Source: Aquimarina macrocephali JAMB N27 (GTDB taxonomy: Bacteria; Bacteroidota; Bacteroidia; Flavobacteriales; Flavobacteriaceae). From it: a DNA stretch of 64,000 bases. Under the pieces are notes generated by a model. It was not told where the DNA came from and ran no database searches. It saw only the letters and a list, made by a program, of their open reading frames with translations. This document shows, piece after piece, positions 34,283-62,140 of this stretch. Position 1 is the stretch's first letter. Each line of letters begins with the position of its first letter. The stretch spans positions 62,001 to 126,000 of the forward strand of contig NZ_JACA01000035.1 of the NCBI RefSeq assembly GCF_000520995.1, written 5' to 3'. A program made the translations under genes and the position numbers.

Positions 34283-35014
34283 TTAAAAATTTAATCTACC
34301 AGTTCCTCTTTCTCCTGCAGAATACGTATCCCATCCCCAGAAAAATGTGTTATCCAACCATCGATTTGGGTAGGATCTTAAATAAGTACTTCCTGTAGCA
34401 GAAACTGTTTGATATGATGGGTACGCATAGATATCATAATTTGTTATAAACCATCCATCTGTTCCTTTTAATGAAATTTTGCCGGATTGAATTTCTACCC
34501 AACTTATAGCTTGTCCCGGGTATCTTGCACTTAAATAATAATAGTCTGTTTGTCCTCTTTCTCGATCATCCCCAGCATTATTTAAACTAGATACCGAATG
34601 CGTATAGATTCCTCTACTGGTTCGAAACCTCACACTAGCCTTAGCATCTCCATCAGTTTCATTATTTTTTTGAGCTCCTGTCTTTGTACGGATTCTATAA
34701 TACCATCTTGTACTATAACCTTTCTCATAATTGGTATTTACCGAATTCTTATTCATATATTCTGTAACTTCTTCTTCAAATCTTGCATCAGCTTCTTCTT
34801 TACTTATATCGGCGCTATAACTTCTATGTAATATTGGAATTACAACTTCCGCATTTTCTTCAATCTTGGTATCACTTTTACCCGTTTTGCTCATAAAGCC
34901 TTCGGTATTATTTGAAATTTCGGGAATAACCTCTTGTTCCTTCTCGCAAGAAGCAATTGCTACTATGCAAAATACCCCTACTACATACATTTTTAGATTT
35001 GTTAGTCTTTTCAT
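34283..35014 (-). CDS. Lipoprotein with PLAT-like beta-sandwich
   Basis: 243 residues: a lipoprotein signal (FCIVAIASCEK, cysteine about 23), an acidic linker (to about 105) and a C-terminal beta-rich domain. The segment RIRTKTGAQKNNETDGDAKA is like the start of a PLAT/LH2 domain, which binds lipids or proteins. A second beta-strand run (GWFITNYDIYAYPSYQTV) fits the same fold. The Glu after the lipid cysteine suggests surface exposure is possible but not certain. It starts 20 bases downstream of a 34-base block shared with the next gene, and is followed closely by the two small peptides. Confidence 0.75.
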   Translation of the reverse strand: MKRLTNLKMYVVGVFCIVAIASCEKEQEVIPEISNNTEGFMSKTGKSDTKIEENAEVVIPILHRSYSADISKEEADARFEEEVTEYMNKNSVNTNYEKGYSTRWYYRIRTKTGAQKNNETDGDAKASVRFRTSRGIYTHSVSSLNNAGDDRERGQTDYYYLSARYPGQAISWVEIQSGKISLKGTDGWFITNYDIYAYPSYQTVSATGSTYLRSYPNRWLDNTFFWGWDTYSAGERGTGRLNF

Positions 35015-35034
35015 TTTATTTAATAATTAGTTTT

Positions 35035-35068
35035 TTGCCTACTCTATTCACTTTTCGGCTACCGTGTT
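35035..35068 (-). promoter_or_regulatory. Shared 34-base upstream block, copy 1
   Basis: The block matches 35464-35497 at 29 of 34 positions and lies 20 bases before the PLAT-like lipoprotein gene. On the minus strand both copies contain AACACG, then CGAAAAGTG or TGAAAAGTG, then ATAGAGTA. The fixed distance to two different genes suggests a promoter or RNA element. Confidence 0.6.
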
Positions 35069-35128: not shown

Positions 35129-35440
35129 TCAGAATCTAATTTCAGGAGAGTTTTGAGCCACTCCTCCTCCATCAACATAATAGGTCACATTAGTATCCTT
35201 TTTTACTTTTATTTGCATTCTTGCCCTGGTCAATGACCATTTACCAACTTGAAGTTTTTTGTAGGTTCTTCCGTCTAACTTTTGTTTCTGTCTATCTTTT
35301 CCAAACCAGCCAACACCATATCTAACTTTAATTGAAGCATCGTTTGGGGCTTTAAAAAAAGCAACTCCATTGGCATTAAAAAAGCTTTCCATAGTTTTCC
35401 ATTTCCCCTTTTTTACAAATTTTTCCCTAATCGTGGCCAT
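35129..35440 (-). CDS. Small beta-rich protein of unknown function
   Basis: 103 residues, no signal peptide and no membrane segment. It is rich in lysine and aromatic residues with a strand-like pattern (IKVRYGVGWFGKDRQKQKL and KKLQVGKWSLTRARMQIKV), so a small beta-sandwich is likely. It ends with VDGGGVAQNSPEIRF. It has the second copy of the 34-base block 23 bases upstream, so it is probably controlled together with the PLAT-like lipoprotein gene. I do not recognise a family. Confidence 0.65.
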   Translation of the reverse strand: MATIREKFVKKGKWKTMESFFNANGVAFFKAPNDASIKVRYGVGWFGKDRQKQKLDGRTYKKLQVGKWSLTRARMQIKVKKDTNVTYYVDGGGVAQNSPEIRF

Positions 35441-35463
35441 AACTTATTATATATTTTATTTTC

Positions 35464-35497
35464 TTGCTTACTCTATACACTTTTCAGCTTACGTGTT
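35464..35497 (-). promoter_or_regulatory. Shared 34-base upstream block, copy 2
   Basis: Copy of the block at 35035-35068, 23 bases before the 103-residue gene, same orientation. Substitutions are at five positions only, while the flanking sequence is unrelated, which points to selection on the block. Confidence 0.6.
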
Positions 35498-37712: not shown

Positions 37713-38264
37713 GTGGATCAATCCCTTATTGACATTTTAATTCATAGTAATCCTAAGGAAATAAGTAAATTATATTATTTACACAGGAGCGCTTTTTTTA
37801 ATTTTGGAAAAAAATATGGTGTAGACCAAGACTCCATGGCCGATATCTATCAAGATGCATTTGTAGTACTTAGAAAGCAAGCAATACAAGGAAAATTGGA
37901 GGTTGTGAACAGCTCTTTAAAAACCTATTTATTTGGTATCGGTAAACGAATGATTTTCAACCATTATAAACAGCATAAAAATACAGTTTCATTAGAACCA
38001 AAACTTCATATTACCAACGATAACATCGAAAAAATCACATTTGATGAACCTGTCGAGCTTTCTGTAGAGCAAAGACTTTTACAGACTTTTTTTAATAAAT
38101 TAGGAAAACGATGCAAAGAGATGTTAATATTATTCTATTATCGAGGACTAACAGTAGAGGAGATTGCCGAAAAAGAAGGATATGATAATACTAATGTAGT
38201 GAGTAGTCAAAAATCCCGATGTATTAAGCAATTAAGAGCAATGATTAATCCCCCTAAACAATGA
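37713..38264 (+). CDS. ECF-type RNA polymerase sigma factor
   Basis: 183 residues with sigma region 2 (about 20-85: DSMADIYQDAFVVLRKQAIQ and YLFGIGKRMIFNHYKQ) and region 4 (about 120-175: RCKEMLILFYYRGLTVEEIAE). That is the two-domain ECF layout. The frame starts at a GTG (37713-37715); the next in-frame methionine lies within region 2. The stop overlaps the start of the next gene by 4 bases (ATGA), so sigma factor and the membrane protein are translated together, as is usual for sigma / anti-sigma pairs. Confidence 0.88.
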   Translation: MDQSLIDILIHSNPKEISKLYYLHRSAFFNFGKKYGVDQDSMADIYQDAFVVLRKQAIQGKLEVVNSSLKTYLFGIGKRMIFNHYKQHKNTVSLEPKLHITNDNIEKITFDEPVELSVEQRLLQTFFNKLGKRCKEMLILFYYRGLTVEEIAEKEGYDNTNVVSSQKSRCIKQLRAMINPPKQ

Positions 38265-38977
38265 AACCCCAGGATCTCATATCAAAATACATTCAAGGTA
38301 CCTTAACAATTGAGGAACAACAGGAATTTGACACACTATTAAGTGTTGATCAAAATTTTAGAGACGAAGTACTGTTTCATACTAATCTTAAAAAAGTAGT
38401 AGAACATAAGGATGATGATGATTTTAGACATTTGCTTTCTGGCCTTGAGTCTAATGTTAAGAAAAAAAATAAATTAAAATGGTGGTCTATAGCAGCTTCT
38501 ATTCTTGTACTATTAGGAACCATCTATTTTTGGAATACCAAAAAACCAGTGTCAAATGAAGAGTTATTCGCTACTTACTTTGAACCGTATAGGAATATTC
38601 TTCAACCTGTGGTAAGAGGAGATGATCATAAGAACAAAATATCAGTAGCTTTTAATGCTTATGAAAATGGTAATTTTAAAAAAGCTCTTGACGCATTCAA
38701 TACAATATTAGAAACTGAAGAAAATGACACTCTTCAATTTTATAAAGCAAATACCTTGTTAAAACTAAATGAGACTAAAAAAGCAATTATAATTTTGGAA
38801 GAACGAAGTGAAATTAAAAACTCGTTTAGCGAAAAAAACCATTGGTATCTGGCCATGGCATATCTAAAAGTTGATCAACTTAACAAAGTCAAAGAACAAT
38901 TAGAATTATTAATAAAGATTCCTGACAGTGAATATAAAAAGGAAGAAGCTAAAGAACTACTCAAAAAACTTAATTAG
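38261..38977 (+). CDS. Anti-sigma-like membrane protein with periplasmic TPR domain
   Basis: 238 residues: a cytoplasmic part of about 73 residues starting DLISKYIQGTLTIEEQQEFD, the pattern of Bacteroidota anti-sigma N-termini, a transmembrane helix at about 74-91 (WWSIAASILVLLGTIYFW), and an outer part with TPR-like helices (about 120-235: FNAYENGNFKKALDAFNTIL). There is no zinc-binding anti-sigma motif. Its start overlaps the sigma gene by 4 bases and its end overlaps the convergent TPR-CHAT gene by 21 bases. I infer it holds the sigma factor at the membrane and can be released by an outside signal. Confidence 0.8.
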   Translation: MKPQDLISKYIQGTLTIEEQQEFDTLLSVDQNFRDEVLFHTNLKKVVEHKDDDDFRHLLSGLESNVKKKNKLKWWSIAASILVLLGTIYFWNTKKPVSNEELFATYFEPYRNILQPVVRGDDHKNKISVAFNAYENGNFKKALDAFNTILETEENDTLQFYKANTLLKLNETKKAIIILEERSEIKNSFSEKNHWYLAMAYLKVDQLNKVKEQLELLIKIPDSEYKKEEAKELLKKLN

Positions 38978-41900
38978 TTTTTTTCTAAAAATAAAAACCG
39001 GAACCAAGACCAATATCGTCATCCACCAGCGTAAAAAACCTTGCTCCAAAGATTCTGTATTACCCGAAACCACAAATCCGGCCCAATAAAAAGGGTGTTT
39101 TAATGCGTTATCTCTTACACTACCGAGATACTGAAGTTTTGCTCGTTGCAATGCTCTGTCTTTAGCATATCCTTTTTTTAAATTTTTATAAAAATAGTTC
39201 ATTATCACCGAGGTTTCTTTATCCGGCACTTTCCATAAGCTCATTACTGTGCTTTTTGCTCCTGCATAATGAAAAGCTCTTGACATACTCATCACGCCTT
39301 CACCTTTTTCCAATTTTCCGAATCCTGTATTACAAGCACTAAGCACAATCATTTCTGAAGGAATTGATAATCCATAAATATCAGATGCCATTAAAATATT
39401 CTTATTACCATTTTCAGAAAATATAAGCTTATTCAACATTGCATTTTTTTTATCAATCTCTGCATGAGTGGCCAAATGTATTATTGAAGAATTAGTAGCA
39501 TTAGCAACAAAATTTTTAACAGAAGCCTCTTCGCCCAAAAATGCTTTACCTTTCATGATTTTCGAAATACTTCTAACTTCGGTATCGCTTGAGGCAAAGG
39601 AATTATTATTTTTATATTTCGGTGCAAAACCACTCCATTTCATTTCTTTTGTAGTTTTTAATGACCTCTCGGTTAATGCTTTCAATACTGTTGCAGAACC
39701 TGCATAACTTATAGCATACTCTTCAAGCATATATCCTTTTCCATTATGCAAAACCTCAAATGGAACATAATTAAGTATGTTATCTGTTACCAGTATCAGA
39801 GTTTCTTTCAGATTCAAATTTTTCAGCAAAGCTGTAAATATTCGTTCAGAATTTTCTTTGACGTTTTGTTGGTTAAGTATTTGCTTTCTAAATTCCGTAA
39901 TTGATTTAGTCAAGCCTTTTATTATTGGTAACTTCTTAAAGTCAATAGTATCATCATTTATGATAAAAATGTATAGGTTTTTCTCTCCAGCAAAATACTC
40001 AATCAAAGTTGTATTTGTATCCAAATATTCCTTTTGTAACTGCGAGACTTTGATCGTGTGATCAGCATATTTTAGCTGATAATATCTAGGATATTCTCTT
40101 TCAATTTTATGCAATAAATCCTCAAGCTTCATACTATACTTCAATCGTAAACTCATAGTAGAATCTATCTCGAATGAATGTGTTTGAGTATGTAGTGCTG
40201 TTCTAATAGAGGACAATTTTCTTTTCAACATATTCTCCCGTTGTAATAGTGAATCAGGGACTCCAGCAATTTTTTTAAACTGTTTATCTTTTATTCCTGT
40301 TACCAATGCACTATTTCTATTAATTTCTGAAAATTGGAATGCTTTTTCCAAATATTTCTTTTGTTGAGTATTTTGAAACAAAACATAGCAAATCTCGATT
40401 GCTTTATCAAAATAATCTGGATTTTTACGTCCTACATTTATCAAGGATCTATCAGTAGTATATTGCTTTTTGATTTTACGAATATTTTGGATCATCAAAT
40501 CCATGTTTTTATACGATTGCTGAACTGATGTTATTGTTTTTGAATTCGTATATTGGGTTAAAGCAATGCAATTATTAAGATGTATCGCTTCTACTATCAA
40601 TAAAGGAAAATCATGCTCTCCTTTAGTATACAAGGCAAGATGTTTTTGAATTATTGCAAAGGCTTTTTTATGATTTCCTTGTTTAAACAAAGCTTCTGCT
40701 AATAATAGTTCACTTTTTAAGACATACCTATGATTTTTATAAAAGTGATTCGAAAAATTAATGAATGTCTTTCTGTAGAAATCTATTGCTTTTCTGTAAT
40801 TCTTTTGCTTCATATGCATATCGCCCAAACCCTGGTAACACTCTGCTTCCTGAAACTTAGAATCCATTTTTTCACTTCTCCGTAATGCTTCTTTATAATA
40901 TTTTTCGGCTTCTACATACTCAGCAAGCTTCACGTAAGTATCAGCAATTGATGTTAGATTCTGTATTGGAAACCAATTATATACTCCATAAGATTTTTCT
41001 CTAATTTGTAATGCTTTCTTATCAAAATCTAAAGATATTCTATACTCTCCTTTTAACTTTAAATATCTAACATACCAAGCTTGTATATTTGCAGTATTAA
41101 GATGATTCTCTCCATAAATGATCATTGCCTTTTTTAAAGCTTTATCGATATACTCTTCTGCTTTTTCTAAATCATTTTTCTTAGAATAAATACCACTAAT
41201 AGCGGTATAAATATCTGTAATAAAACCTACTTCTTCGCCTTGGTTTCTAAGATCATATGCAGCTGATTTTTGATAAAACTCTATAGCTTTATCGTAATCT
41301 CCCAAGGCCTCATTTACAACCCCTATATTAAACGTTGTTATTGCCAGGTCATATAAATTAGCCTTGTTTTCTAACTTAAGCTGATATGCTTTATTATAAT
41401 AATTATATGCTTTACTAAAATCTCCTTTCAATAAATAGGCACTTCCCAAATTATTCAATAATTCTGCTCTATTTAGACCTGAAATCGAATACTCAGAAAA
41501 ACTTAATGTTTTCTTTATCAATTGTACCGCTTCATCAAATCGACCAATAGTCCATAAAATGTTACTTCGTACAGTATATGTTCTTACAAGATTATATTTA
41601 GGTAAAGTTGATTTCTTTAATTGGTCCTTTAAAATTTCATCACTTATCTGTAATGCTTTTGTAGTCAAACCATCTTTTCTATACACTACAGCCTTTGTGT
41701 TCATTAACTCACCCCATAGACTGTCGTTTTTTATTGTTGAAGATGTATAGTTTTGAATAGAAACATTAATTGTTTTTAATGCTGAAGAAAAATTGTTTTT
41801 ATAAATTTCAATATTAGAAATATACAATTGTGATTTTAGATAGTTTTTAATATCATCTTTCTCTAAAAAATAGCTTGAAGCAAGCTTAAAATGAAGTAAT

Positions 41901-42022
41901 GCTTCTTTATAATTATAATGAGTATAAGCCGCAACTCCTTTTTGATATGCTCCATCTTCTTGTAGCGAAAAGGCGGATGAGCTTATCAAAAAACATAAAT
42001 GAAAGATCAGTAATTTCTTCAT
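38957..42022 (-). CDS. Secreted TPR-CHAT protease
   Basis: 1021 residues: a signal peptide (about 1-19), many tetratricopeptide repeats (about 25-470, for example LLNNLGSAYLLKGDFSKAYN and GDYDKAIEFYQKSA), a CHAT caspase-like domain (about 690-985) with the catalytic pair His853 in HLATHAE and Cys897 in SACNTGFGKL, and a C-terminal transmembrane helix (about 999-1015) followed by a basic tail. So the protease should sit in the periplasm, anchored at its C-terminus. It is convergent with, and overlaps by 21 bases, the anti-sigma-like gene, suggesting a shared module. Confidence 0.9.
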   Translation of the reverse strand: MKKLLIFHLCFLISSSAFSLQEDGAYQKGVAAYTHYNYKEALLHFKLASSYFLEKDDIKNYLKSQLYISNIEIYKNNFSSALKTINVSIQNYTSSTIKNDSLWGELMNTKAVVYRKDGLTTKALQISDEILKDQLKKSTLPKYNLVRTYTVRSNILWTIGRFDEAVQLIKKTLSFSEYSISGLNRAELLNNLGSAYLLKGDFSKAYNYYNKAYQLKLENKANLYDLAITTFNIGVVNEALGDYDKAIEFYQKSAAYDLRNQGEEVGFITDIYTAISGIYSKKNDLEKAEEYIDKALKKAMIIYGENHLNTANIQAWYVRYLKLKGEYRISLDFDKKALQIREKSYGVYNWFPIQNLTSIADTYVKLAEYVEAEKYYKEALRRSEKMDSKFQEAECYQGLGDMHMKQKNYRKAIDFYRKTFINFSNHFYKNHRYVLKSELLLAEALFKQGNHKKAFAIIQKHLALYTKGEHDFPLLIVEAIHLNNCIALTQYTNSKTITSVQQSYKNMDLMIQNIRKIKKQYTTDRSLINVGRKNPDYFDKAIEICYVLFQNTQQKKYLEKAFQFSEINRNSALVTGIKDKQFKKIAGVPDSLLQRENMLKRKLSSIRTALHTQTHSFEIDSTMSLRLKYSMKLEDLLHKIEREYPRYYQLKYADHTIKVSQLQKEYLDTNTTLIEYFAGEKNLYIFIINDDTIDFKKLPIIKGLTKSITEFRKQILNQQNVKENSERIFTALLKNLNLKETLILVTDNILNYVPFEVLHNGKGYMLEEYAISYAGSATVLKALTERSLKTTKEMKWSGFAPKYKNNNSFASSDTEVRSISKIMKGKAFLGEEASVKNFVANATNSSIIHLATHAEIDKKNAMLNKLIFSENGNKNILMASDIYGLSIPSEMIVLSACNTGFGKLEKGEGVMSMSRAFHYAGAKSTVMSLWKVPDKETSVIMNYFYKNLKKGYAKDRALQRAKLQYLGSVRDNALKHPFYWAGFVVSGNTESLEQGFLRWWMTILVLVPVFIFRKKLIKFFE

Positions 42023-59320: not shown

Positions 59321-62140
59321 TTATAGCTTCTTCTTCACCGCTACTTCTTGGTAAGCCTCTACTATATCACCTTCTTTAATATCATTATAGTTCTTAATCT
59401 GCAGACCACAATCATATCCTTTCGCCACTTCTTTTACGTCATCTTTAAATCTTTTTAAAGAAGCAAACTCACCAGTATACACTACAACACCTTCTCGAAT
59501 CAAGCGTATGCCAGAATTTCGGAAAAGTTTACCTGTAAGAACCATACATCCTGCAATTGTACCGACTTTAGAAATCTTAAATGTTTCTCTAATTTCTGCA
59601 GTTCCTGTAATCTCTTCCTTCATTACTGGAGAAAGCATACCTTCCATTGCATCTTTAAGATCATTGATAGCATCATAAATAATCGAATATGTTCTGATAT
59701 CGATTTCTTCCTTATCAGCAACTTGTCTCGCATTACCTGCTGGTCTTACATTAAATCCAATAATAATAGCATCAGATGCAGATGCAAGTAACACATCACT
59801 TTCTGTGATCGCCCCCACTGCTTTATGAATGATATTTACATGAATCTCTTCTGTGGATAGTTTCTGGAATGAATCTGTTAATGCTTCTACAGAACCATCA
59901 ACATCTCCTTTAAGAATAATATTAAGTTCTTTAAAGTCTCCTAAGGCAATTCGACGTCCGATCTCATCTAGTGTAATATGTCGTTGTGTACGTACAGATT
60001 GTTCTCTATGTAATTGTGCTCGTTTTGAGGCGATATCTTTAGCCTCTCGTTCATCTTCTAATACACTAAACTTATCTCCTGCTTGTGGAGCCCCGTCTAA
60101 TCCAAGAATTGAAACTGGCGTAGAAGGCCCTGCTTCTTTCACACTATTTCCTCGTTCATCCTGCATTGCCTTAATCTTACCGCTATTTTTACCGGCAAGA
60201 ACATAATCTCCTATTTTAAGTGTACCTGTTTGCACTAAAATAGTAGAAACATAACCACGTCCTTTATCCAAAAACGCCTCGACAACTGTACCAGATGCCA
60301 GTCGATTTGGATTTGCTTTAAGCTCTAATATTTCAGCTTCAAGAAGTACTTTTTCAAGTAATTCTTTAACTCCTAATCCAGTTTTAGCAGAAATATCATG
60401 GGATTGGATTTTTCCTCCCCAATCTTCTACTAATAAATTCATAGAAGCTAGTTTTTCTTTTATCTTTTCAGGATTTGCTTCTTGTCTATCTACCTTATTA
60501 ATTGCAAATACAATTGGAACTCCTGCTGCCTGAGCATGACTAATCGCTTCTTTAGTCTGTGGCATCACATCATCATCTGCAGCAATTACAATAATAGCTA
60601 AATCTGTTACTTGTGCACCACGCGCACGCATCGCAGTAAACGCTTCGTGACCTGGTGTATCTAAAAATGCTATTTTTTGTCCACTTTCTAACTGCACTCC
60701 ATAAGCTCCGATATGCTGGGTAATCCCACCACTCTCTCCGGCTATTACATTTTCTTCTCGAATATAATCAAGTAAAGAAGTTTTACCATGATCAACATGT
60801 CCCATTACAGTTACAATAGGAGCTCTTTCTGTTAAATCTTCGGGAGCATCTACAATTTCTTCTATTGATTCCTCAATATCCGCAGTTACAAAATTAACTT
60901 CATAACCAAATTCATCTGCAACGATAGAAAGGGTCTCTGCATCTAAACGCTGATTCATTGTCACCATTATTCCTAATGACATACAAGCCGAAATAATATC
61001 AGTAGTCGCCACATTCATCATCGTAGCAACTTCAGAAGCTGTAACAAATTCTGTTACTTTAAGCACTTTGCTTTCTTGCTCTTGTTGTGCTACATCATCT
61101 TCTGCTTTCTGACGGTGTTGATCTCTCTTATCCCTACGATACTTTGCCGCTTTTGATTTATTAGATTTCCCTTGTAACTTCTCAAGAGTCTCTCGTACTT
61201 GTTTTTGTACTTCTTCTTCGCTTGGTTCTTCTTTTACAATAGCAGGTCGTTTTCCTTTTGCCGGACCTCTTCCTCTATTTCCACCTCCTCGGTTACCACC
61301 ACCAGACTGACCTCCTGGTCTACCACCACCAGATCCTTGAGCACCGCCTCCTTCTTTACTAATTCTTCTTCGGCGTTTTTTTGCTGCATCTCCTGCGTTT
61401 GAAGATTTCTTATCAGATTTATCTTCTTTCTTTTTCGCTGGTTTTTTAAACTGAGTTAAGTCAATTTTCTGACCTGTAAAATTAGGACCATCCAATTTTT
61501 TATACTGAGTTTTAACCTTTTCTGGTTCTACAGAAACTTCAGCTTCCACTTCTGGCGCTGGAGTTTTAGGCTTATCTTTGCTCACAACGGGCTCTACAGG
61601 TTTTTCTTCTTTTATTTCTTTTGGCGCTTGTCGCGTAATTTTAATTCCTTTTTTCTGAGGTCTATTTGAAACTACTTCAGGGGTTTTGCTTTTTACATCT
61701 TCCTTTTCTTTTTCTTTTACCTCTTCCTTCTTAGGAGCTTCAACTGCCTTTTCTTCGGGTTTTGCAGTATTATCCTCTTGTTTCTCACCTTCTAATTCAA
61801 TCTTACCAACTTGCTTAGGTCCGCTTAATTGAGCTTTGGCTTTTACAACTTCTCGAGCTTCTGAACGTTTACGCTTTTCTTCCTGCTCATTTTCGATCTG
61901 CACTCGCAACGCTTCTTTTTCTTTCTTCTTTTCTTCTCCAACTTCTTTTGAAGCTACTTTTTTACTTTTATCCGTTTGAAATTCATCAAACAAGAGCTGA
62001 TAAATCTCTGAAGAAATTTTTGTAGTAGGACGCGCATCTATCTCGTGACCTTTTGAATTCAAAAAGTCAACAGCCCGATCTAGCGAGATATTGAATTCGC
62101 GTAATACTTTATTTAGTCTCATTGTTCCTGCTTCAGCCAT
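59321..62140 (-). CDS. infB: Translation initiation factor IF-2
   Basis: 939 residues. The N-terminal third is low-complexity, charged, with a Gly/Arg-rich stretch ([20 protein letters not shown]) that may bind RNA. The GTPase part starts near 430 with G1 GHVDHGKTS (447-455), [15 protein letters not shown] (G3) and NKVD (G4), followed by the beta-barrel and C-terminal domains. It brings initiator tRNA to the ribosome. It is the last gene of rimP-nusA-infB, 43 bases after nusA. Confidence 0.97.

Follow-up and report, generated by a model that had tools for sequence, protein, structure and literature searches.

The regulated proteolysis of the anti-sigma factor RseA by DegS and RseP is well-established background. 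RseA is cut first by DegS and then by RseP, and in the type III-E clustered regularly interspaced short palindromic repeats (CRISPR) system the protease Csx29 cuts Csx30, a protein that blocks the DNA binding of a sigma factor (PMC10028731; all papers cited by PMC number are used here through excerpts of their text). Here, we investigated a locus of Aquimarina macrocephali JAMB N27 (RefSeq assembly GCF_000520995.1) in which genes for an extracytoplasmic function (ECF) sigma factor, a membrane anti-sigma-like protein with a tetratricopeptide repeat (TPR) domain and a TPR-CHAT cysteine protease lie together; the window, i.e., the whole stretch of DNA analysed, comprises 64,000 nucleotides (positions 62,001 to 126,000 of contig NZ_JACA01000035.1). 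To our knowledge, the route by which TPR-type membrane anti-sigma factors are inactivated is still open. We propose that the locus probably encodes a protease switch across two compartments, in which the exported CHAT protease would make the first cut in the anti-sigma factor and so free the sigma factor. Support comes from gene linkage, protein architecture, predicted topology, covariation of a linker residue (P1) with the putative specificity pocket (S1) of the protease, and a promoter-like motif shared in one subgroup.

A second relevant system is that of Myxococcus xanthus, where DdvS is active once DdvA is inactivated, the signal being described as unknown (PMC4374960). The Protein Data Bank (PDB) entries 8rot and 8rw5 for DdvA are titled transmembrane anti-sigma factor and name the molecule, of 991 amino acids (aa), a CHAT domain-containing protein; judging by the name, it is presumably the Myxococcus protein. 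DdvA is a fold match of our CHAT model, with a sequence match at E 0.032, and like the locus studied here it links an anti-sigma factor to CHAT, but in one chain, whereas here the two are separate proteins with variable gene order. The fusion gives independent support to a link between anti-sigma factors and CHAT, yet lowers the novelty of the present finding; a search of an open-access library turned up no publication on the structure of DdvA. Clan CD proteases near sigma factors are also described in other bacteria, namely an EACC2 caspase with an ECF sigma factor and a DUF1822 TPR protein, and Myxococcus metacaspase operons with sigma-70 (PMC8195603, PMC3501461), but these are caspases or metacaspases rather than CHAT proteins and the excerpts describe no membrane TPR anti-sigma factor with them. 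PMC7159879 and PMC8156234, searched on the same question, contained nothing relevant. A description of CHAT with a sigma/anti-sigma pair outside CRISPR was not found in the open-access library searched, and one may exist elsewhere.

The sigma factor gene (37713..38264, plus strand, GTG start) encodes 183 aa with an NCBIfam TIGR02937 (sigma70-ECF) match above the cut-off (E 8.3e-20), while the Pfam matches to sigma regions 2 and 4 lie under theirs; the match and the short length are those of an ECF sigma factor, a short protein with sigma-70 regions 2 and 4. It overlaps by 4 bases the gene of the 238-aa membrane protein (38261..38977, plus strand), which we class as a putative membrane anti-sigma factor by its position directly 3' of the sigma gene (an adjacency that was also the selection criterion for the 77 loci discussed below) and its single membrane helix. 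The structural model of this protein (mean predicted local distance difference test score, pLDDT, 86.3) begins with a helical N-terminal domain, predicted to be cytoplasmic, followed by a long helix spanning residues 71-93, a segment modelled with less certainty and a TPR domain, whose Pfam matches are below cut-off. Likeness of the N-terminal domain to known anti-sigma families is weak in the window copy (NCBIfam, E 0.038); among relatives, 7 of 21 match NF052375 and 6 of 21 NF047528, at the N-terminus and below cut-off where shown. The CHAT gene (38957..42022, minus strand, 1021 aa) meets the anti-sigma gene tail to tail with an overlap of 21 bases, and its product, whose named relatives are mostly from Bacteroidota (e.g., Aquimarina), matches Pfam PF12770 (E 3.5e-55) and TPR_12 (E 3.5e-39). 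The putative catalytic residues His853 (39464..39466, minus strand) and Cys897 (39332..39334, minus strand) are invariant in a 22-row CHAT alignment, and proteolysis is predicted from this His/Cys dyad. The first-pass annotation, made from the letters alone, had given the location and both overlaps, and had described a CHAT protein with TPR repeats and this dyad; the open reading frames, Pfam matches and alignment agree with it.

In the proposed switch, the cytoplasmic N-terminal domain of the membrane protein would hold the sigma factor, and the anti-sigma TPR domain and the membrane-anchored TPR-CHAT protease would both reside in the periplasm. A signal in the envelope may be sensed by the TPR region of CHAT itself or by that of the anti-sigma factor, upon which CHAT would cut the linker between membrane helix and TPR domain after Arg119 (R119-G120). 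A housekeeping M50 site-2 protease, which the same genome encodes (E 3.9e-48), would finish the stump, and the freed sigma factor would transcribe nearby genes for secreted lipoproteins and, in several relatives, also the CHAT operon. The scheme resembles RseA/DegS/RseP in its proposed successive cuts of an anti-sigma factor and differs in that a clan CD cysteine protease would take the place of DegS in the first cut.

The three genes recur together in many genomes. Four of the six CHAT genes in the A. macrocephali genome share their locus with a sigma gene and a membrane TPR gene that belongs to the anti-sigma family, the other two being one without such genes nearby and one cut by a contig end. 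Conversely, five members of the anti-sigma family stand out clearly in this genome (E 1.4e-24 or better; next 2.3e-4), and all but one of the five lie at these CHAT loci. In a sample of 41 genomes of the same family, CHAT occurs in 16 genomes with 30 matches (24 outside the A. macrocephali genome), and profiles built only from that genome's own loci found the pair at 21 of the 30, with one locus at a contig end having the anti-sigma gene only. By eye, 25 of these CHAT proteins have a C-terminal membrane anchor, and the pair accompanies 21 of them and none of the 5 others. The reverse search of the 41 genomes gave 26 full-length anti-sigma matches (at least 156 bits; the next best had 46, and the remaining, partial matches are present in most genomes), of which 21 are at a CHAT locus; such a full-length match is present in 13 of the 16 genomes with CHAT versus 1 of the 25 without, although the forward count is cleaner since the reverse profile came from these same loci. 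At the level of the phylum, 61 of 118 genomes have CHAT, and the best CHAT locus in each of the 60 other than A. macrocephali includes a strict sigma/anti-sigma pair in 21 cases, the rest including CHAT proteins of another build. A CHAT alignment search added named loci, with the strict pair in 36 of the best 80 among the matches listed (some of those lacking it are short contigs), so that the total is 77 loci (21 from the phylum, 36 named and 20 from the family sample and window). A further sample from the class, in which 60 loci from 395 genomes were hand-picked mostly from the higher-scoring rows among the matches listed, yielded 59 called anti-sigma genes; CHAT lies within 8 kb of 39 of them but not of the other 20. 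Three loci (L256, L260, L263) yielded no anti-sigma reading frame in gene calling and their rows were lost, L234, L237 and L262 are near contig ends, and L240, counted as lacking CHAT, does have one at a distance of about 7 kb, a little beyond the fetched stretch. Around the 21 anti-sigma genes lacking an adjacent CHAT, inspection by eye and a few Pfam scans found no constant partner.

These counts bear on whether the three genes are chance neighbours in a genome rich in sigma factors, which has 44 matches to sigma region 2, or about 0.15 per 20 kb. With linkage in many genomes and in four gene orders, we rejected this explanation, which is barely credible: the module is recurrent. The co-occurrence across genomes that the first-pass annotation had asked about is borne out by the 21 of 26 family and 39 of 59 class-sample anti-sigma genes at CHAT loci and by the 77 loci; the counts do not fit a picture in which most genomes that have this pair carry CHAT apart from it. 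Its description of the genes as one module stands as far as recurrent linkage goes, but not as a single operon in this copy, because the CHAT gene is on the opposite strand to the sigma pair.

Gene order among the 77 loci is convergent in 30, divergent in 19, sigma/anti-sigma followed by CHAT in 10, and CHAT upstream on the same strand in 18. That linkage is kept while order changes suggests a shared function. One such function is that of a regulon, in which the sigma/anti-sigma pair would control CHAT as an effector that does not act on the anti-sigma factor. A promoter-like motif before CHAT, or before the gene preceding it, in some relatives favours this explanation; it leaves unexplained the convergent arrangement of CHAT, within -41 to +7 bp of the pair, at 22 of 77 loci, as well as the covariation of linker and pocket, and we consider it improbable.

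Hydropathy predicts that CHAT and the anti-sigma TPR domain both lie outside the cytoplasm. The window anti-sigma factor has a hydrophobic peak of 1.56 at 72-90 (codons 38474..38530, plus strand), just below the threshold of 1.6, within the predicted helix 71-93, and with a looser threshold of 1.2 a helix is found in all 77 anti-sigma factors, in 71 of which Lys and Arg are richer on its N-terminal side. The window CHAT protein is hydrophobic at 4-22, at 994-1012, where a basic tail follows, and at 876-894, within the CHAT domain. A hydrophobic N-terminus is seen in 70 of the 77 linked CHAT proteins and a C-terminal helix in 56 of the 77, and the tail beyond that helix is net basic in 56 of 56. 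By the positive-inside rule, this charge pattern implies that CHAT and TPR both face the periplasm. The predictions favour the earlier proposals that CHAT has a signal peptide and a C-terminal anchor, and that protease and anti-sigma TPR domain meet on the same side of the membrane.

The comparison with type III-E CRISPR systems, also drawn by the first-pass annotation, holds as an analogy and not as membership. In both, a TPR-CHAT protease is found beside an ECF-like sigma factor and a sigma inhibitor, and Csx29 is among the top PDB fold matches of the CHAT model, at a large root-mean-square deviation (8eey_B, E 8.7e-14; 7y85_D, target TM-score 0.61). The type III-E protease is not known to have an export signal or membrane anchor, while the window CHAT has a hydrophobic N-terminus and a C-terminal helix. 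Array-like direct repeats were not seen at 28000-52000, nor anything array-like in a tandem repeat search of the window, and PADLOC returned TPR matches for the six proteins submitted. Membership of type III-E was rejected on the export signals and the absence of a visible array; the module appears to work like Csx29/Csx30/CASP-sigma. Csx29 is RNA-guided, has Cas7-11 as a partner, and in three orthologues cuts at non-conserved sites, L|D, M|K and A|S (PMC11106740), whereas in the present locus export of CHAT is predicted, the putative inhibitor sits in the membrane and the predicted site is conserved.

That site, R119-G120 (codons 38615..38620, plus strand; residues are numbered as in the window proteins), lies in the linker. 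In the 77 aligned anti-sigma factors, R119 has a conservation score of 3.43, fifth among all residues with Met1 included, and weighted frequencies of 0.72 for Arg, 0.10 for Lys and 0.11 for Met; the following residue is Gly or Ser at a weighted 0.75. G120 scores 2.30 and the surrounding positions 116-118 and 121-124 only 0.7-1.5, the linker overall being about as conserved as the TPR domain (1.16 versus 1.21), and R119 falls in the least confident block of the outer half of the model. As a conserved Arg within a flexible segment close to the outer face of the membrane, R119 has the appearance expected of a protease site, which makes it a candidate.

Residue 119 varies together with three positions of CHAT, of which D934 (39221..39223, minus strand) had been named as a likely pocket acid before the covariation test. 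In the first 77 pairs, the best partners of column 119 among 349 CHAT columns were 815, 895 and 934. After extension to 116 pairs, 119-815, 119-895 and 119-934 rank 1, 4 and 7 of 77,235 column pairs, and each of the three CHAT columns has 119 as its best partner among 228 anti-sigma columns. All of these column pairs share one phylogeny, so that the ranking is partly its own control. The extended anti-sigma set was aligned to the profile of the 77 rows, a method independent of the CHAT sequences; it replaced a local-pair alignment that had shifted the linker by two columns in many rows (Arg in 46 of 116). P1 is Arg in 87 rows, 86 of them with an aligned CHAT, and these have E815 in 85, S895 in 85 and D934 in 86. 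Among the 16 rows with Met or Leu, none of the 14 with a residue at 815 has Glu (one has Asp) and D934 is present in 4 of 15; apart from eight rows with Lys, the remainder have Gln (two), Val (one) or no residue at 119 (two). Taking one row per 70% identity cluster gave the same picture (111 clusters, only three of which contain near relatives). The ambiguous rows L158, L055, L273 and L239 (two anti-sigma factors paired to one CHAT) were kept; L223 and L264 lack aligned CHAT residues, and L143 and L275 lack one at 815. Within single genomes, the odd anti-sigma factor stands beside the odd CHAT in 6 of the 6 genomes where both vary (P=0.0026; chance 1 in 384).

In the CHAT model, E815 (39578..39580, minus strand) lies in the helix 810-823, S895 (39338..39340, minus strand) just past the strand 891-894 and two residues before the catalytic Cys, and D934 at the start of the helix 934-949; E815 and D934 are predicted to be acids of the S1 pocket and S895 part of its wall. 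MALT1 D462 and caspase-3 Q161 likewise stand two positions ahead of their catalytic Cys. P1 recognition in caspase 3, gingipain, MALT1 and a model of separase involves a charged residue at the start of the first helix, with additional sites where strand 4 ends and in the loop or helix that follows, and in that model the P1 Arg of separase substrates is bound by two acids (PMC4626109). The modelled places of E815, S895 and D934 match these P1-binding residues, a comparison drawn after the three columns had emerged from the first 77 pairs. Separase is also the top PDB fold match (9hn0, E 1.8e-14), with low whole-chain TM-scores (0.31 and 0.21) and a root-mean-square deviation of 22.5; it is eukaryotic, and its substrate differs from the one proposed here. 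The candidate cleavage site with its pocket covariation is the new evidence beyond the first-pass annotation, and as a pattern in aligned sequences it adds support to the CHAT-triggered release of sigma that the annotation had put forward.

Inhibition in the manner of securin offers a parallel for a different explanation of the covariation, namely that the linker is a pseudosubstrate. It would sit uncut in the CHAT active site and keep the protease off, the anti-sigma factor would restrain two partners at once, and the true substrates would be other envelope proteins, for which the lipoproteins beside CHAT could serve. The same P1-S1 covariation and linkage would be expected, which counts against the proposed cut; the small residue following P1, by contrast, suits a cut site, and in the CRISPR precedent the CHAT protease does cut the sigma inhibitor (PMC10028731). 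We regard this explanation as unlikely, though with some weight.

Several further observations weigh against cleavage of the anti-sigma factor by CHAT, of which the first is that the cut at R119-G120 is inferred and not observed, as are the order of the cuts, the involvement of a site-2 protease, the signal and, for this genome, the regulon. The eight P1 Lys rows are mixed, with E815 in 4 of 7, and two genomes in which one side only varies fall outside the pairing test (G036, Lys with Glu-Ser-Asp; G461, Arg with Arg-Ser-Asp). The CHAT tree shows no more than 6 changes of P1 class. Phylogenetically independent pairs agree in 2 cases, oppose in 0 and show no difference in 1 for position 815, and for D934 (Arg/Lys versus Met/Leu) agree in 0.6 and oppose in 1.0 on average; with so few events this test is powerless, and the ancestry-controlled evidence is weak. 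The Glu-Ser-Asp pocket is present in 70 of 85 CHAT proteins without an anti-sigma match in the fetched locus. As it is the usual state of CHAT, the evidence rests on a switched minority that is largely one lineage, and its frequency without an adjacent anti-sigma gene lowers our confidence in the switch slightly. R119 is Arg in 16 of the 21 anti-sigma factors without CHAT in the fetched stretch, and an anti-sigma match without CHAT occurs in three genomes (G003, G112, G116). The rank correlation of CHAT with anti-sigma is 0.36, as high in 0 of 500 shuffles, but swapping whole paralogues within 5 genomes gave an equally good fit in 303 of 500 trials (72 of 500 for CHAT with sigma), which shows the correlation to be unspecific; there is no general co-evolution of CHAT and anti-sigma by whole-protein swaps, and we dropped it as evidence. 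Anti-sigma and sigma trees, by comparison, match within genomes (0 of 500 swaps as good), which bears indirectly on the predicted binding and inhibition of sigma. Moreover, the topology is drawn from hydropathy, a promoter of the window's own sigma factor was sought and not identified, nor was a motif like those of its relatives, and other proteases (subtilase, retropepsin, M28) are encoded at some loci.

Part of this would follow if another protease cut at R119 and the covariation with CHAT arose through shared ancestry only. The retention of R119 without an adjacent CHAT and the weakness of the ancestry-controlled tests favour such a protease, as does the Lys at 119 in G422, which has no CHAT; the other 14 of the 15 genomes holding those 21 anti-sigma factors have CHAT elsewhere. 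Against it, shared ancestry applies to every one of the 77,235 column pairs, and still the best partners of 119 are three columns of the pocket; the pairing of odd partners within genomes also speaks against it. We regard another protease as a highly unlikely explanation.

In five related loci, the motif GTTAACC is found 27-29 nt before the sigma gene and 45-82 nt upstream of 18 of 81 genes. The other loci have it so placed before 6 of 1923 genes, shuffles gave 0.22 (at most 2), and a control inside genes gave 1; because the motif was noticed in loci later used as the core set, this count is not a blind test. The products of the 18 genes have, by eye, hydrophobic or lipoprotein-like N-termini, and the genes include those directly before CHAT in L127 and L145 and CHAT itself in L165. 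The sigma gene of six other loci is preceded, at 50-66 nt, by TTGTTAC[CT]. For this motif-chosen set the pattern points to a sigma factor under autoregulation, with a regulon of lipoproteins and a positive feedback loop. Divergent from the sigma gene of the window, a 243-aa gene with a lipoprotein-like N-terminus (34283..35014, minus strand) and a 103-aa gene (35129..35440, minus strand) have near-identical upstream blocks (35031-35056 and 35460-35485, minus strand) that occur nowhere else in the genome at up to 3 mismatches; as a conjecture, both may be regulon members.

Some loci differ in their neighbours or in CHAT type. A subtilase (S8) lipoprotein gene adjoins CHAT in one sigma locus (L010:10403-11656), with relatives in L033, L034 and L094, and a 129-aa lipoprotein in L009 looks by eye like an S8 propeptide alone, with no Pfam match. 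Elsewhere, a gene for a retropepsin-like aspartyl protease directly follows CHAT and a PKD/DUF7619/DUF7849 gene precedes it (L011:4417-4854, L035, L037, L043). A constant gene neighbourhood is seen in L053, L058, L059, L063 and similar loci (f21), where a lipoprotein gene (M28 peptidase in L053) lies between sigma and a CHAT without C-terminal helix. In L105-L107, CHAT is of a different type, the neighbouring sigma gene is longer (221-232 aa) and the gene that follows is another one, which may represent a second CHAT/sigma arrangement. In L069 (12268-13224) and L074 (5709-6665), the gene immediately preceding CHAT encodes an anti-sigma-like protein of 318 aa, and no sigma gene was recognised next to it. 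Single genomes of the same class have 39 (G437), 35 (G495) and 29 (G158) Pfam matches to CHAT, weak and partial ones included.

A wider interpretation, which we put forward tentatively and with less than even confidence, is that many Bacteroidota-like genomes operate parallel, insulated envelope channels, each with its own CHAT, cut site (Arg or Met type) and sigma factor, CHAT being a new class of site-1 protease of which Csx29/Csx30 would be the soluble relative; genomes with both types would keep protease and substrate matched, with up to 39 CHAT matches in a genome. The present analysis names a candidate protease, bond and pocket residues for the inactivation of TPR-type membrane anti-sigma factors. 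If the proposed switch is true, CHAT/separase-like proteases would have a role in envelope signalling outside CRISPR, and this would suggest a reason for the large CHAT expansions in some genomes.

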